Of a DNA stretch of 63,805 bases, positions 31,838 through 37,960 are shown in pieces. Below the pieces are notes generated by a model. The model made no database searches. It saw nothing but the letters and a program-made list of their open reading frames with translations, and was not told where the DNA came from. How positions within the stretch are numbered: position 1 is the first letter of the stretch; every line of letters begins with the position of its first letter. The position numbers were made by a program, and so were the translations under genes. Source of the stretch: Gemmatimonadetes bacterium bin94 (GTDB lineage: Bacteria; Gemmatimonadota; Gemmatimonadetes; Longimicrobiales; Gaopeijiaceae); contig MPNE01000022.1 of NCBI GenBank assembly GCA_002238865.1, positions 1 to 63,805 of the forward strand. Direction: 5' to 3'.

Positions 31838-32488
31838 TCAGAACGGCCACCGCTGCGCCGCCATCACCGCGGCGGTGGCCCCGGCGGCGGTCGACACCAC
31901 GATGTTCCAGGCTCGTTCGGGGACGGAGAAACCGCGCGCAGCGATGAACGCGGCGATGACGAGAACGGCCGCCACGACGATCTGGGCGAGTTCCAGGCCG
32001 ATGTTGAAGGACAGCAGCGGGACGAGGATGTCACGCTCCTGGCCCAGCGCCAGTCGGAGGAAGTTCGAGAAGCCGAGGCCGTGGATGACGCCGAAGAGGA
32101 GGGCTGCCGCGTAACGGGAACGGCGTTCCGCGCGGCGGGTGTCGGCGGCTTTGGAGGGGCGCCCCCCGCGTTTGGCGGCTTTGCCTGCGCGGCGACGCGG
32201 AGGACCGTGGCGCTGGACCACGATCAGGTTGAACACGGCCGTGGCTACGATCGTCACCGGGATGAGGAACTCCACGATACCCGAATCGACGCGTACGAGC
32301 CGCAGCGTGGCCACCGCGAGCGACACGGAGTGCCCGATCGTGAACGCCGTGACGAGGATCAGCAGCTCGCGCCACCGCGCCAGGGTGTAGGCCGCGCAGA
32401 GCACCGCCAGGAAGAGGATGTGGTCGTAGCCCTGAAGGTCGAGGAGGTGCTCGAAGCCGAGCCGCAGGTAGACGGTGAAGGTGGTCAT
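31838..32488 (-). CDS. HupE/UreJ-family membrane protein
   Basis: The 216-residue protein has about six membrane segments. Motifs GYDHILFLAVL (about 20-30), FTIGHSVSLA (about 47-56) and FGVIHGLGFSNFL (about 133-145) match the HupE_UreJ_2 pattern, in which His residues may bind nickel or another metal. A basic cytoplasmic insert (RHGPPRRRAGKAAKRGG) splits the protein after segment three. Its ATG overlaps the PHP gene stop (ATGA). The transported or sensed metal is unknown; a copper or nickel link with the downstream oxidase is inference. Confidence 0.85.
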   Translation of the reverse strand: MTTFTVYLRLGFEHLLDLQGYDHILFLAVLCAAYTLARWRELLILVTAFTIGHSVSLAVATLRLVRVDSGIVEFLIPVTIVATAVFNLIVVQRHGPPRRRAGKAAKRGGRPSKAADTRRAERRSRYAAALLFGVIHGLGFSNFLRLALGQERDILVPLLSFNIGLELAQIVVAAVLVIAAFIAARGFSVPERAWNIVVSTAAGATAAVMAAQRWPF

Positions 32489-33816
32489 GGCGCGGTGCGT
32501 TGCGGGGTGAGGGGGGCGCAGCGACGGATGGCCGCGCGCACGGCCACCCATGTGGCGATCCAGACGAGCCACGACATCCGCTCGGCCATGCTCAACATGC
32601 GGAAATGCTCCCAGAGCAGCCACGGGACGGTCGCCGCCAGCTTGACCACCGAATCATCATGGTACGGCATCCTGCGCTCCACCACCGTGACCGCGCGGCG
32701 CCGCTGGGCGTGCAGCACGGCCTCGACGGCGTCTCCGAGCCGGGACGGGGTCATGCCCTGCCAGCCCGGGACGCGCATCACGCTCCAGGCCGGGACGGTT
32801 CGTCCCCACCCGTGGAGGTTCGCGCCCGCCACCACCGCCAGATCCATCGAGTCGGCGAGTGCGAGGATCTCGCCGCGCTCGCCCCGGGCCTGCTCCAGGC
32901 CGCGCGGCGCGCCGTCGCTCAGCTCCACGCCGACCACACCAGCCGGGAAGCCGGGCGCAAGCGGCACGATCCGGTCGAGCGCCCCCGGGATCGTGTACAG
33001 CATGGTGGCGGGCGCCGCGCCCCGCCCCCGCGCGGCGGCGATCGAGTCAGGGTCGAGGTGGTGCCAGGTGCCGTCCAGCGCGAAGAGATAGCGGTCGCGG
33101 TCACCCAGGATGTTCGTGTGCCGGTTGCGGAGCCGCACCTCCATGCCGCCCAGCAGCACGGTGCGCTCGCCCGCCCGCTCCGGGTTGGCGGGCAGCGCGT
33201 CGTCCACACCCGCCCAGGTGTAGTGATCGGTGATGTAGGCCGCACCGAAGCCGCCGGCCTCGTGCCATGCGCGGTTCCTCGCGGCGGTGAAGCGGGACCA
33301 GCCGTCGTGGGAGTGGTTCGTGTGCGAATGGAAGTCCACCGCGAGGAGATCGGGGTCGGCGAGCCGGATCGCGGTCATGGGGCGCGGGATGAGGGCCGCG
33401 GCGGCGTAGAAGCCGAGCAGGGCGGCGAGCGCGACGGCGGCGCGGAGGACTTCCCGAGCGGCGAGGCGCGGCAGGGAGGGGCGCGGGGTGCCCGGGGCGG
33501 CCGAACGGGTGCGCCTGCGCGAGGCACGGGCCGCGGCGAGGCGGTGGGCGGCGTACAGGACGATCAAGGTCAGCACCAGCGCGTAGTGCTGTCGCAGCGC
33601 GAGGAGGGACACGCCGTCGAAGAGGCCGAAGAGGGGTGCGCCGAGGAGGTAGCCGAACGGCTGGTGGAGGGGGGCGGGGGGGGGGGGGGGGGGGAGGGGC
33701 GGGTGGGTGGCGGCGTCTTGCAGGGCGGGGATGGAGGTAAGCGCGGAGACGGCCACCAGACAGGCGAGGAGGATGGGGGCCCGGGAGGGGCGCCAGATCG
33801 GCCGGGGCAGGCTCAC
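32485..33816 (-). CDS. Membrane-anchored PHP-domain metallohydrolase (CehA/McbA-like)
   Basis: The 443-residue protein has three N-terminal membrane segments (about 14-33, 52-95, and 115-145), the first followed by a poly-Pro run (residues 39-47). The PHP domain begins with DFHSHTNHSHDGW (about 160), then AYITDHYTW, GGMEVRLR, GVVGVELSDG and VVAGANLHGWGR, giving the His/Asp/Glu metal ligands. A last membrane segment ends the protein (SWLVWIATWVAVRAAI). The GTG start at 33816 overlaps the hipA stop as GTGA, giving translational coupling. PHP enzymes hydrolyse phosphoesters; the substrate is unknown. The poly-Pro run lies in a 19-G tract. Confidence 0.85.
   Translation of the reverse strand: MSLPRPIWRPSRAPILLACLVAVSALTSIPALQDAATHPPLPPPPPPAPLHQPFGYLLGAPLFGLFDGVSLLALRQHYALVLTLIVLYAAHRLAAARASRRRTRSAAPGTPRPSLPRLAAREVLRAAVALAALLGFYAAAALIPRPMTAIRLADPDLLAVDFHSHTNHSHDGWSRFTAARNRAWHEAGGFGAAYITDHYTWAGVDDALPANPERAGERTVLLGGMEVRLRNRHTNILGDRDRYLFALDGTWHHLDPDSIAAARGRGAAPATMLYTIPGALDRIVPLAPGFPAGVVGVELSDGAPRGLEQARGERGEILALADSMDLAVVAGANLHGWGRTVPAWSVMRVPGWQGMTPSRLGDAVEAVLHAQRRRAVTVVERRMPYHDDSVVKLAATVPWLLWEHFRMLSMAERMSWLVWIATWVAVRAAIRRCAPLTPQRTAP
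33676..33694. repeat. 19-base G homopolymer in the PHP hydrolase gene
   Basis: Nineteen consecutive G on the plus strand, encoding part of the poly-Pro run after the first membrane segment of the PHP protein. The reading frame is intact at this length. Confidence 0.9.
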
Positions 33817-35108
33817 GGCACCGTCCTGGCCAGCAGGGTCGCCCGGTTTTCGACCCGCGCCGCCTGCTTCGCCAGGGCGTCCTGGTCCAGGCCGGGCAAC
33901 ACGAGTGCTTCCGCAACGGCGCTGCTTCGTTCGCTGGCCTGGTCGCACAGCTCCCCGACCCGCTGTCGGACGAAGGGGGCACCCAGGCCGCACTGACGGG
34001 CGAACCGGTCCCAGTCGCCGTGCCGGAACTCCTGCAGCGTACCGCGACCCGCGACTTTCATGGCCAACCTGGTCGAGAACCGAGGATAGGCAATCGTGGA
34101 CAGCAGGTCATACAGCGGCGCGAGTCCCACATCACCGTCCGGTTGCCGGAGAAGACTGTAGTTCTTGCCGTGAGCATCGGCGTTACCGAGCAGGACCTGG
34201 AGGATCGCCGCGTCAAGCAGCCCGAGCACCGCGATTGCGGGACGTGTGCAAACCCGCCGGATCAGGTCGAAGCAATGCGGAGATCCTGGGCCCCCGTCCG
34301 CAGCATACTTCCGCTGCGGAACGATCCCGAGTGCCTGGCAGAAATCCTCCTGATGCAGGCGCTTCACAGGTCCCTGCGGGGCAGGCAGGCGGTCGTAGCG
34401 CTCCACCAGCAGATATGGCATGCCGGCCACCACTCGCGGTCGCACCGGCGCCACGGCCAGTCCCAGGTCGGCGGCAAGGCACATCGCAAACGCTTCGTTC
34501 TCGGTTGTGGCTTCGAGACCAAGCATGGGGGGTTTGAGAATATGAGTCGTCGCCTGGCCGGGCACCGGGAGAGCGATCCGCCCGTGGACCAATACGACCG
34601 GGATCTTGGACTGTGCGCCCGCCAGGGACATGCGCAGGCCGTCCGCCGCACCCCGAACGTGCGAACCGGGGCCCTTCGCGATCCCGGTTAGAAACGGGCG
34701 CTGCCGGATCGTCTCCAGCACGCCGGCGAGTTCGTCGACCGAGAGGGCTTCCGGTACCGGTTCGGTCTCCGTGTCGCGTGGATCTTCGCCCTCCGGCAAC
34801 AACGAGAGCGCACCTGCTACCTCCGCTCCCAATCCGGCCAGCAACCGAAAGGTGTTGGCGGGCGACACCCCGAGTCCGGCAGCGGCACCGTCGCGTTGTG
34901 TACCCTCCGGCAACAGGCCCTCGAAGAACGGAAGGCAAAGCCGGGGACTGAAACTCTCCGGTCCCTTGGGCAACGAAAAGGAGATCGGCGGTGTCGCGGT
35001 GTCCTGGATCCAGTCACGGTCGTACGTGAAGCGCGCCGCGCCGTGGCGATGCAGGGAAAGCGAACCGACGATCGCGCTGTCCCACCAGACGGTCAGAGAA
35101 TCCGTCAT
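33813..35108 (-). CDS. hipA: HipA-family Ser/Thr kinase toxin
   Basis: The 431-residue protein has the HipA layout: N-terminal subdomain (about 1-110, with FSPRLCLPFFEGLLPEG), the P-loop/ejection segment SLAGAQSKIP (about 161-170, its Ser 161 corresponds to the autophosphorylated Ser of E. coli HipA), THILKP (178-183), the hinge YLLVERYDR (222-230), LHQEDFCQALG, the catalytic NADAHGKNYSLL (309-320) and the DFG-equivalent PLYDLLST (331-338). All catalytic residues are present, so the kinase is probably active. Family members phosphorylate tRNA synthetases such as GltX. It overlaps hipB by ATGA and the PHP gene by GTGA. Confidence 0.96.
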   Translation of the reverse strand: MTDSLTVWWDSAIVGSLSLHRHGAARFTYDRDWIQDTATPPISFSLPKGPESFSPRLCLPFFEGLLPEGTQRDGAAAGLGVSPANTFRLLAGLGAEVAGALSLLPEGEDPRDTETEPVPEALSVDELAGVLETIRQRPFLTGIAKGPGSHVRGAADGLRMSLAGAQSKIPVVLVHGRIALPVPGQATTHILKPPMLGLEATTENEAFAMCLAADLGLAVAPVRPRVVAGMPYLLVERYDRLPAPQGPVKRLHQEDFCQALGIVPQRKYAADGGPGSPHCFDLIRRVCTRPAIAVLGLLDAAILQVLLGNADAHGKNYSLLRQPDGDVGLAPLYDLLSTIAYPRFSTRLAMKVAGRGTLQEFRHGDWDRFARQCGLGAPFVRQRVGELCDQASERSSAVAEALVLPGLDQDALAKQAARVENRATLLARTVP

Positions 35109-35392
35109 TCGTAGGAGAACCGCTGCGGGTCGGCCCCATCTGCTTCCGCGACAGCCTCCGACCCCGCTCCCTCACTCGTAGCGGTCGCGCCCCCGGGCAA
35201 CTCCACACGCACCGTGCAACCGAGTGTATCGAGCACGGCGAGCACCTTCTCGAGCCGAACCGTCGCCTTGCCCCTCTCCAGTTCGGAGACAAACCGTACG
35301 CCGACGCCCGCAGCTCCCGCCAGTTGATCCTGGCGGAGGCCCTGGGCCTTCCGGGCCGCGCGCACGATCTGTCCAATCTCCGCAGGAGTCAT
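35105..35392 (-). CDS. hipB: HipB-like antitoxin, XRE-family DNA-binding protein
   Basis: This is a 95-residue protein with a helix-turn-helix (about residues 5-60, RKAQGLRQDQLAGAAGVGVRFVSELERGK) and a flexible acidic tail (about 72-95), as in HipB. I chose the ATG at 35392; the longer open frame to 35473 would cross the first operator-like palindrome. It should neutralise HipA and repress the operon by binding the palindromes upstream. The last residues include SYE, not the C-terminal Trp of E. coli HipB. Confidence 0.94.
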   Translation of the reverse strand: MTPAEIGQIVRAARKAQGLRQDQLAGAAGVGVRFVSELERGKATVRLEKVLAVLDTLGCTVRVELPGGATATSEGAGSEAVAEADGADPQRFSYE

Positions 35393-35434
35393 TCGCTCAC
35401 CATCCCCGTTTGGCCCATTCGCGCCCCGATTATT

Positions 35435-35594
35435 CCCGAACGGTAAAATCGCCTCGGAATGATGGCTAGTCAACCCCCTGCTGTCCCGAACGGGAAAAAA
35501 CTATGGCGAGCGGCGAGCTCGCGCCGTCCTATTTCCCGATCGGGACAAATCGATACCAAAGCACACCGCATGACCCGAAAGTTGCCCGATCGGG
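35435..35594 (-). promoter_or_regulatory. Four 50-bp-spaced CCCGANCGGG palindromes, putative HipB operators
   Basis: The core CCCGAACGGT/CCCGAACGGG/CCCGATCGGG/CCCGATCGGG starts at 35435, 35485, 35535 and 35585, exactly 50 bases apart. Copies 2-4 are perfect 10-bp palindromes with AT-rich flanks (TTTCCCGATCGGGACAA type); copy 1 has one mismatch. On the minus strand a possible promoter is TTGACT (35473-35468) and GATTTT (35450-35445) with a 17-base spacer, so copy 1 would cover the start of transcription and copy 2 would sit just upstream of the -35. Copy 4 begins 15 bases after the end of the DUF5916 gene. Confidence 0.85.
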
Positions 35595-35599
35595 AAAAC

Positions 35600-37960
35600 T
35601 CACCCCCCCGTAAACGTGTGCGAATACTTGACCAGGATCGCCCTGCCTGCCGACAGCGGCCGCCTCGGACCCAGCCCGTCGTCGCGCTCGCCGAAGAATC
35701 CCTCGTTGTAGACAATCCAGAGGTCGGTGCCTTCGCGGAAGTGGTAGCGGAAACGCACGTTGAGGCTGGTCTCCGCCGTCGCGCTGTTGTACTGGCCGAA
35801 GGTGGTCATCGAGACGCGGGGATTGAGCGCGGTCTTGATCCTCAGGCGCCCGAGCTGCGTGGTGGTGCCGACTTCCCGGTCGGCGAAATCGAGGCGGTTC
35901 ACCTCGTAGCCGCCCTCCAGCTCCAGGTACTTCGACACGACCCACGCGGGGGCCAGTGACAGGCTGACGCGGGTTCCGCCGTAGAAACTCCCCACCGAGG
36001 CATCGAATTCTCCCCGGAAAAGGGAGCTGCGGGGGAGTCTGAGCATGGCAGTCGCCTCGTGGAACCAGTACTCGCCCGCAGGAATGACCACATCGGAGAT
36101 CGAGAACGCATCGCGGACGCTCTCGAAGCTGGACAGGGTGCCGACGAGCAGGTTTGACCCGTCTCTGAACTCGAATTCGATCTCGGGCTTGATCTCCCGT
36201 GACTCGGGCGTTCGGTCTGCGTTGCGGAAGTACTGCGCCGTACTGAACTGAAGTGCGCGCGCGACCAGCGGCGACGTGGCATCCCGCAACTGACGGTAGC
36301 GAAGTTGACCGCCGCCGTACGCGAAGTCCTTGCGCAGCTGAAAACCGAGTCCGGGCAGGTAGTCGGCACCCACCCTAATCCCCTCGGCGTAGTACGAGAA
36401 TCCGTCATCCCGGCGGCGCTCCAGACGGGCCCTCGCGAGCCCCGATTCCAGCCCCCCCGTCTGGTCGGCTGCCTCGTCGAAGGTGTGCGCCCACTGCAGG
36501 ATCAGGTATTCGTTGCCCAGCCACCGCAGAACCGCGTCCAGCCCATAGGCGGTGTTGTTGCGACCCTTCGTCCCCAGGCGCGTGGTGAGCATGCCGCCGA
36601 TGCTCGAATAGTCGTCCAGGACCTGCTGGCGCAGGCGTACCACCCCCACGTTCTCCGAGGACCGGTCGCCGTGCGGGGCGGTCTGCATGCTGAGGACACC
36701 GAAGTCGGTCCCGGCCAACCTGCCCACCGCGCGGCCGCCCCCGTAGATGCGCACGATTTCGCCCTGGTCCAGCCCAATCCGCCGGCTGTGAAAGAGCCGG
36801 TTGAACATGCCGCCGGTGTTGAAGTCGAAGGTGGAGGCGCGTTCCTGGAAGAACTGTCGCTTCTCCGGGAAGAACAGCGCGAAACGTGTAAGGTTGATCT
36901 GCTGATCGTCGGCCTCGACCTGCGCGAAGTCGGTATTCACCGTCAAGTCGAGCGCCAGGTTCGAGGTCGGGGAGTACTTGAGGTCGATCCCCGCCTCGGT
37001 CGTTGGGTCGCGCTCGCTGCGCCATTCTGCCCGCGGCACGTCGGGCGGCTCCGCCAGCATCGGGGTCTGCTTGAAGCCGGCCAGGGAAAACGGTGTCAGG
37101 TACACCGGCGTCGACTGCTGCACATCGCGCAGCACAACGCGCTGAGCCCGCGAAGGCTTCGCGAAGCCCAAGCGGCCCCAGCCGGGTTCGATGGGCGGGA
37201 AGGTCTGACGCTCGTTCTTGCGCGGCACCACCCGGTAGGCGATGAGCCCCATGGTGACCTCGCCATCCGTGACCTGAAAGCCAAGGGTCGAGAAGGGAAT
37301 CCTGAACTCGGCGAACCAGCCTTCGCCGGTCTGGGTGGTGGCCACGTCCCAGTGCGAATTCCATTCCCAGTTCATCGGCATTCCGCTGGTGAACTCGGCG
37401 TCGTTGGACATCGTCCGGTCCTGCCGCACTCCCGCCGGGTTGGCGACGAACCAGACCGCGGTCTCGTAGTCGTTGTAGCTGTCGATGACCACCGCGAGGA
37501 TGTCGTCGCCGCTGTACTGGTCGCGATACAGGGTGCCGGTGCGGACCTGTGAGGGTTCGGAGTCGTACATGCGACCCGAGACGTAGAGATAGCGGTCGTC
37601 GTGCGCGACCCGGATCTCGGTCTCTTCGGTGAGCCGGCCGCGAAAGTTGGGCGTGTACATGGTCATCGCGAAGGGCGCGACCTGGTCCCAGGCCGCCTCG
37701 TCCACGATGCCGTCGAGCTCGATCTCGCCCGCCAGGCGGGGAATGGTGATGGGCGAGCCGGGCGAAGGTTCGACCGGGCGGAGCTGCCCCTGCAGGCCGG
37801 CGGGCATCGTCAGCAGTGCCGCGATGGTGGTCCAGGCCGCGATGATGGGCCGGGCCGCGATGGTCGGCCGGGCCGGAAGAGTGCTGGGGTTCACGTTGTC
37901 GAGTGCTTTGGCATGGGTGGCGTAGCTGGTGCGGGGAAGGTCGCGCACCGGTGATAACAT
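35600..37960 (-). CDS. DUF5916 domain protein with CBM9-like N-terminal domain
   Basis: The protein is up to 786 residues. After a signal-like segment (about 35-57, ending LQGQ) it has a carbohydrate-binding-9-like domain (about 70-250; ELDGIVDEAAWDQV, RVAHDDRYLYVSGRMYD, WFAEFRIPFSTLGF) and then the DUF5916 beta-barrel-like region (FFPEKRQFFQERASTFDF and repeated strands to the C terminus). Such proteins are outer-membrane or surface proteins common in Bacteroidota and Gemmatimonadota. The ATG at 37960 is only five bases from the divergent hydrolase ATG, so GTG 37894, just before the signal segment, may be the real start. Function unknown. Confidence 0.85.
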   Translation of the reverse strand: MLSPVRDLPRTSYATHAKALDNVNPSTLPARPTIAARPIIAAWTTIAALLTMPAGLQGQLRPVEPSPGSPITIPRLAGEIELDGIVDEAAWDQVAPFAMTMYTPNFRGRLTEETEIRVAHDDRYLYVSGRMYDSEPSQVRTGTLYRDQYSGDDILAVVIDSYNDYETAVWFVANPAGVRQDRTMSNDAEFTSGMPMNWEWNSHWDVATTQTGEGWFAEFRIPFSTLGFQVTDGEVTMGLIAYRVVPRKNERQTFPPIEPGWGRLGFAKPSRAQRVVLRDVQQSTPVYLTPFSLAGFKQTPMLAEPPDVPRAEWRSERDPTTEAGIDLKYSPTSNLALDLTVNTDFAQVEADDQQINLTRFALFFPEKRQFFQERASTFDFNTGGMFNRLFHSRRIGLDQGEIVRIYGGGRAVGRLAGTDFGVLSMQTAPHGDRSSENVGVVRLRQQVLDDYSSIGGMLTTRLGTKGRNNTAYGLDAVLRWLGNEYLILQWAHTFDEAADQTGGLESGLARARLERRRDDGFSYYAEGIRVGADYLPGLGFQLRKDFAYGGGQLRYRQLRDATSPLVARALQFSTAQYFRNADRTPESREIKPEIEFEFRDGSNLLVGTLSSFESVRDAFSISDVVIPAGEYWFHEATAMLRLPRSSLFRGEFDASVGSFYGGTRVSLSLAPAWVVSKYLELEGGYEVNRLDFADREVGTTTQLGRLRIKTALNPRVSMTTFGQYNSATAETSLNVRFRYHFREGTDLWIVYNEGFFGERDDGLGPRRPLSAGRAILVKYSHTFTGG

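Follow-up and report, generated by a model that had tools for sequence, protein, structure and literature searches.

Why should four copies of one short palindrome stand at exactly equal distances upstream of a toxin-antitoxin operon? The question was posed by a 63,805-nucleotide stretch of DNA from Gemmatimonadetes bacterium bin94 (contig MPNE01000022.1, positions 1 to 63,805; the window), in which the gap between a DUF5916/CBM9 gene and the hipBA genes, all on the minus strand, was occupied by an array of palindromes directly upstream of hipB. An earlier reading of this stretch, the original prediction, had placed the cores at 35435, 35485, 35535, and 35585, described the bases between them as non-repetitive, and proposed that HipB binds there. 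The answer that we consider very probable is that the four palindromes are the HipB operators O1-O4 of hipBA and would form a helically fixed array through which HipB (or HipBA) represses its own operon, probably with cooperative occupancy.

The palindrome array in the window

A sequence scan recovered the four palindromic cores at exactly these starts, with spacings of 50, 50, and 50 bp, and inspection of the spacers confirmed that they were neither repeats nor duplicates. The O1 core (35435..35444, minus strand; CCCGAACGGT, or TTTTACCGTTCGGGAATA on the minus strand) had one mismatch and an extended site at about 35431-35448; O1 covered the predicted transcription start. O2 (35485..35494, minus strand; CCCGAACGGG) preceded the predicted -35 box by 11 bp. 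O3 (35535..35544) and O4 (35585..35594), both CCCGATCGGG and both on the minus strand, were perfect core palindromes, with 5 bp between the latter and the upstream gene's stop codon. All four sites were near the consensus. The form of the word given in the original prediction (CCCGANCGGG) was slightly off; the fuller site was the even palindrome TTNCCCGAWCGGGNAA.

Core matches with one mismatch occurred in the window at chance level (95 seen vs 85 expected), so the signal was the clustering and not the individual matches. Across the whole genome of 4.42 Mb, a scan located exact CCCGAWCGGG at about 49 forward positions, approximately one per 90 kb, and three exact, equally spaced cores within 110 bp were found only at this locus. 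By our own estimate, which left out the fourth site, the chance of three equally spaced cores was about 1e-8.

Conservation of the array in relatives

A gene-independent scan of 395 genomes of the phylum for core pairs spaced 42-72 bp found the pattern in 25 genomes. Regular arrays stood beside hipB in 15 scan genomes as well as in the window's own, and the other nine had mostly lone pairs with irregular gaps; L018 (genome G095) and L007 (genome G155) were array-like, with no hipB in the stretch that was fetched. A second survey started from HipB protein similarity (profile search with a narrow HipB alignment), and 80 loci were fetched; their records were labelled Gemmatimonadota, Acidobacteria, Planctomycetota, Chloroflexota, and Alpha- and Gammaproteobacteria, some of them metagenome bins, so that individual taxon labels may be mistaken. 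Of this set, 66 non-redundant loci had two or more TTCCCG sites. Two Caulobacteraceae loci (L159 and L208) carried the word at 49-50 bp. Over 72 non-redundant hipB loci from Gemmatimonadota, Acidobacteriota, Planctomycetota, Pseudomonadota, and others, 128 of the 146 adjacent spacings were 48-52 bp. Homologous hipBA promoters were checked for missing palindromes or random spacing, and the outcome favoured the original prediction: the same palindromes at 48-52 bp appeared before hipB in many genera and several phyla. In relatives, the hipB promoter region likewise had multiple similar palindromes, their positions relative to hipB were kept, and the association with hipB held across phyla and differing gene neighbours.

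Two side observations came from these loci. In L131-L134 and relatives, the 5' leader contained one more operator, which lay about 24 bp from hipB and 64-66 bp from the adjacent site, out of step with the others, and which the window lacked. In L007, a pair of TTCCCGATCGGGAA-like sites at 1501-1558 was spaced by 48 bp, and the 2.9 kb fetched there contained no hipB; this pair is possibly a second HipB target or a product of chance.

Promoter placement and spacing

A sigma-70-like promoter, TTGACT-17-GATTTT by consensus match, was located in the hipB-proximal spacer between O1 and O2. Its predicted -35 box (35468..35473, minus strand) lay at a position enriched in the proximal spacers of relatives, and the predicted -10 box (GATTTT, 35445..35450, minus strand), 17 bp away, abutted O1. 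O1 thus covered the predicted start and O2 flanked the predicted -35 box, as had been proposed for the first and second sites. In the relatives, proximal spacers scored 8.41 for sigma-70 against 6.70 after shuffling with the -35 box at a constant place, whereas the distal spacers showed no promoter signal (6.48 vs 6.50 shuffled); across 63 loci, enrichment at the -35 position was confined to the proximal spacers.

The distal spacers were about 30% identical between loci, compared with 25% after shuffling, and the site spacing is conserved while the spacer sequences drift. Promoter size may fix the O1-O2 spacing; it cannot fix O2-O3 and O3-O4, because the distal spacers had no promoter signal and were nearly unrelated. 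At 10.5 bp per turn, 50 bp is 4.76 turns and not a whole number, so simple stacking on the same face or wrapping is not implied. Of the earlier proposal, the reading of the sites as HipB operators was supported by the conserved arrays, and the DNA wrapping did not follow from the 50-bp period.

Comparison with known HipB systems

As the original prediction stated, E. coli hipBA also has several operators with a different consensus. In E. coli K-12, four even palindromes (TATCCN8GGATA) stand upstream of hipB in a hipB-hipA operon, as in the window, and are bound by HipB; however, their spacing, measured in this analysis, was 28/39/28 bp rather than 50/50/50 bp, the half-site was different, and HipA was only 31% identical. 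Neither the E. coli word nor its spacing was found in the window array, which by its sequence belongs to a different operator class. In Legionella HipBST, three evenly spaced operators were bound by HipB in an electrophoretic mobility shift assay (PMC10653801), and the HipB of this system, HipB(Lp) (8ezt), was the best PDB match of the window HipB. The Legionella array differs in its 53-bp gaps between 18-nt sites (a 71-bp period by arithmetic), its motif, and its split toxin genes. A series of inverted repeats has been noted in the Caulobacter crescentus hipBA1 and hipBA2 promoters, in a study without cross-species analysis of them (PMC7029023). No report of TTCCCGAWCGGGAA/TTCCCG as a HipB operator, or of spacing conserved across phyla, was found in the literature searched, which included few subscription journals. 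Multi-operator autoregulation by HipB is already known in E. coli, and an operator word class with unusually conserved spacing extends it.

HipB subfamilies that differ in their recognition helices had TGTCGCCGWWCGCCGACA at 27 bp and GCACGATCGTGC at 60/61 bp, equally strict, and the operator word changed with the recognition helix. At the locus of a HipB(Lp)-like protein (L241), TTACTGCTATAGCAGTAA was spaced at 72/71 bp, and the quite different words AGTTCCCTWWAGGGAACT and ATTTAACGATCATTGAAT were found at 50/50 bp (L057) and 49/50 bp (L248), respectively. It is conceivable, though we doubt it, that HipB spacing is quantised at 27-28, 39, 49-51, 60-61, and 71-72 bp, that is, at (n + 1/2) turns of about 10.95 bp. 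The values 27.3, 39, 49.6, 60.4, and 71.3 fitted a 10.95-bp period with a phase of one half (R = 0.99, p of about 0.0003-0.001), for five distinct values and a pattern found after looking. Within the window's genus, 30, 41, and 64-66 bp did not fit, nor did the 23-bp steps of the class D arrays; with 30, 41, and 65 added to the values, p rose to 0.12, and a common helical-phase lattice, suggestive as it is, fails when the exceptions are counted. If the lattice were true, one shared higher-order HipB-DNA geometry would underlie all subfamilies, spacing would be more conserved than the operator word, and adjacent dimers would lie on opposite DNA faces, given the longer helical repeat that supercoiling confers on cellular DNA. 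Upstream of another HipB-like gene (L124, L125, L128, and L129), four to six AGAAACCTATAGGTTTCT sites formed dense arrays with steps of 27 and 23 bp.

A model of autorepression and its alternatives

In the proposed model, O1-O4 would be bound by HipB dimers, either unaided or together with HipA as a co-repressor. With O1 on the -10 box and start and O2 immediately before the -35 box, an occupied pair would exclude RNA polymerase and shut the promoter, and O3-O4 would extend the phased complex. With the period fixed at 50 bp, each dimer would be rotated by the same angle relative to the next, and this suggests that neighbours are in contact and that autorepression is cooperative and switch-like. 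Such contact is made via HipA in E. coli; here HipB-induced DNA geometry alone may possibly serve. The mechanism is ordinary, and the spacing conservation is remarkable.

Several observations weigh against this model. Spacings of 30, 41, and 64-66 bp occurred as exceptions within the same genus, the window promoter was a weak match at -10, and Legionella HipB possibly shows intermediate occupancy according to its authors, unlike the cooperative HipB of E. coli (PMC10653801). Spacings of 49-51 bp also persisted where hipA was lost beside hipB and in two genomes without detectable HipA, G347 and G407; no HipA_C match was found in either whole genome, and the spacings were nonetheless 50 and 49 bp. 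HipA bridging therefore cannot be required in every case, and recent HipA loss would equally explain the spacing in these two genomes.

The loci without hipA were found in congeners of the window's genome. Here hipA was deleted, truncated, or broken while hipB and the array were kept (L013 in G247, L015 in G061, L016 and L130 in G299, and L017 in G347), and in L015, L016, L017, and L130 hipB lay between the window's own neighbours, the DUF5916 gene and a gene matching window positions 32485-33993. In these four congeners the antitoxin is retained without its toxin. In another genome (G394), the contig ended just past hipB. L018 contained an array at about 1501-1624 beside a DUF5916 gene, and neither HipA nor a close HipB was found in that genome (G095); this array is either a relic or a trans-regulated site.

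Independent binding of HipB, with the O1-O2 spacing set solely by the fit to the sigma-70 promoter and no higher-order complex, would account for the constant place of the promoter in the proximal spacer, and Legionella HipB binds single operators alone (PMC10653801). We regard this explanation as unlikely, since O2-O3 and O3-O4 keep 48-51 bp despite promoter-free and nearly unrelated spacers and since spacings of 27 or 60 bp are kept with equal strictness in other HipB subfamilies. A relic, in which the array was inherited and selection was lost here, is brought to mind by the array that G095 keeps by its DUF5916 gene without hipBA and by the four congeners with hipA deleted or broken beside hipB; however, the window hipB and hipA are intact, kinase motifs included, and the four sites are close to the consensus, which makes a relic very unlikely.

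It is highly improbable that the sites belong to another regulator or a nucleoid protein and are merely near hipB. HipB binding is a prediction here and the L007 pair had no hipB in its fetched stretch, but the association with hipB across phyla and neighbours and the change of the word with the recognition helix argue for HipB, and less similar helix-turn-helix (HTH) genes (L215-L231) were mostly without such arrays. Regular repeats with variable spacers superficially resemble a mobile or repetitive element placed upstream of hipB by chance, whether repetitive extragenic palindrome-like, CRISPR-like, or a tandem duplication. The probability of such an element is negligible: whole-genome scans revealed no clustering elsewhere, the spacers were not duplicates, and positions relative to hipB were kept in relatives. 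An intrinsic terminator of the upstream gene was also considered and was a poor fit by eye to loop-less 10-bp palindromes four times over.

With the autorepression model favoured, TTCCCGAWCGGGAA at 49-51 bp would define, by sequence, a well-populated HipB operator class outside the enterobacterial model. The proposed higher-order HipBA-promoter complex, which is held to control persistence in E. coli, becomes directly testable, and the need for HipA in keeping the spacing has a natural test case in the hipB loci that lack hipA.

The hipBA operon and neighbouring genes

The window contained a HipB-type HTH gene followed directly by hipA, the arrangement of a type II toxin-antitoxin operon. The hipB gene (35105..35392, minus strand; ATG and TGA checked) encodes a predicted antitoxin and repressor of 95 amino acids with a Cro/C1-type HTH (TIGR03070, PF01381), which scored 83 bits against TIGR03070 with a cut-off of 71.65. 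The start of hipA (33813..35108, minus strand) overlapped the hipB stop by 4 bp, and its product, a putative kinase toxin of 431 amino acids, matched PF07804 and PF13657 above cut-off and HipA structures in the PDB. SLAGAQ at 161, GNADAHGKN at 308, and APLYD at 330 were taken, by comparison with the E. coli HipA motifs, to be the kinase motifs and the regulatory serine loop. Upstream, the DUF5916/CBM9 gene (35600..37960, minus strand) bounded the array with its end, which gave the minus-strand order of DUF5916/CBM9 gene, array, hipB, and hipA. A second hipA was present elsewhere in the window's genome (G000:C54:45668-46387); about 570 bp from it, C54:46959-47111 matched HipB weakly (E 1.8e-4).
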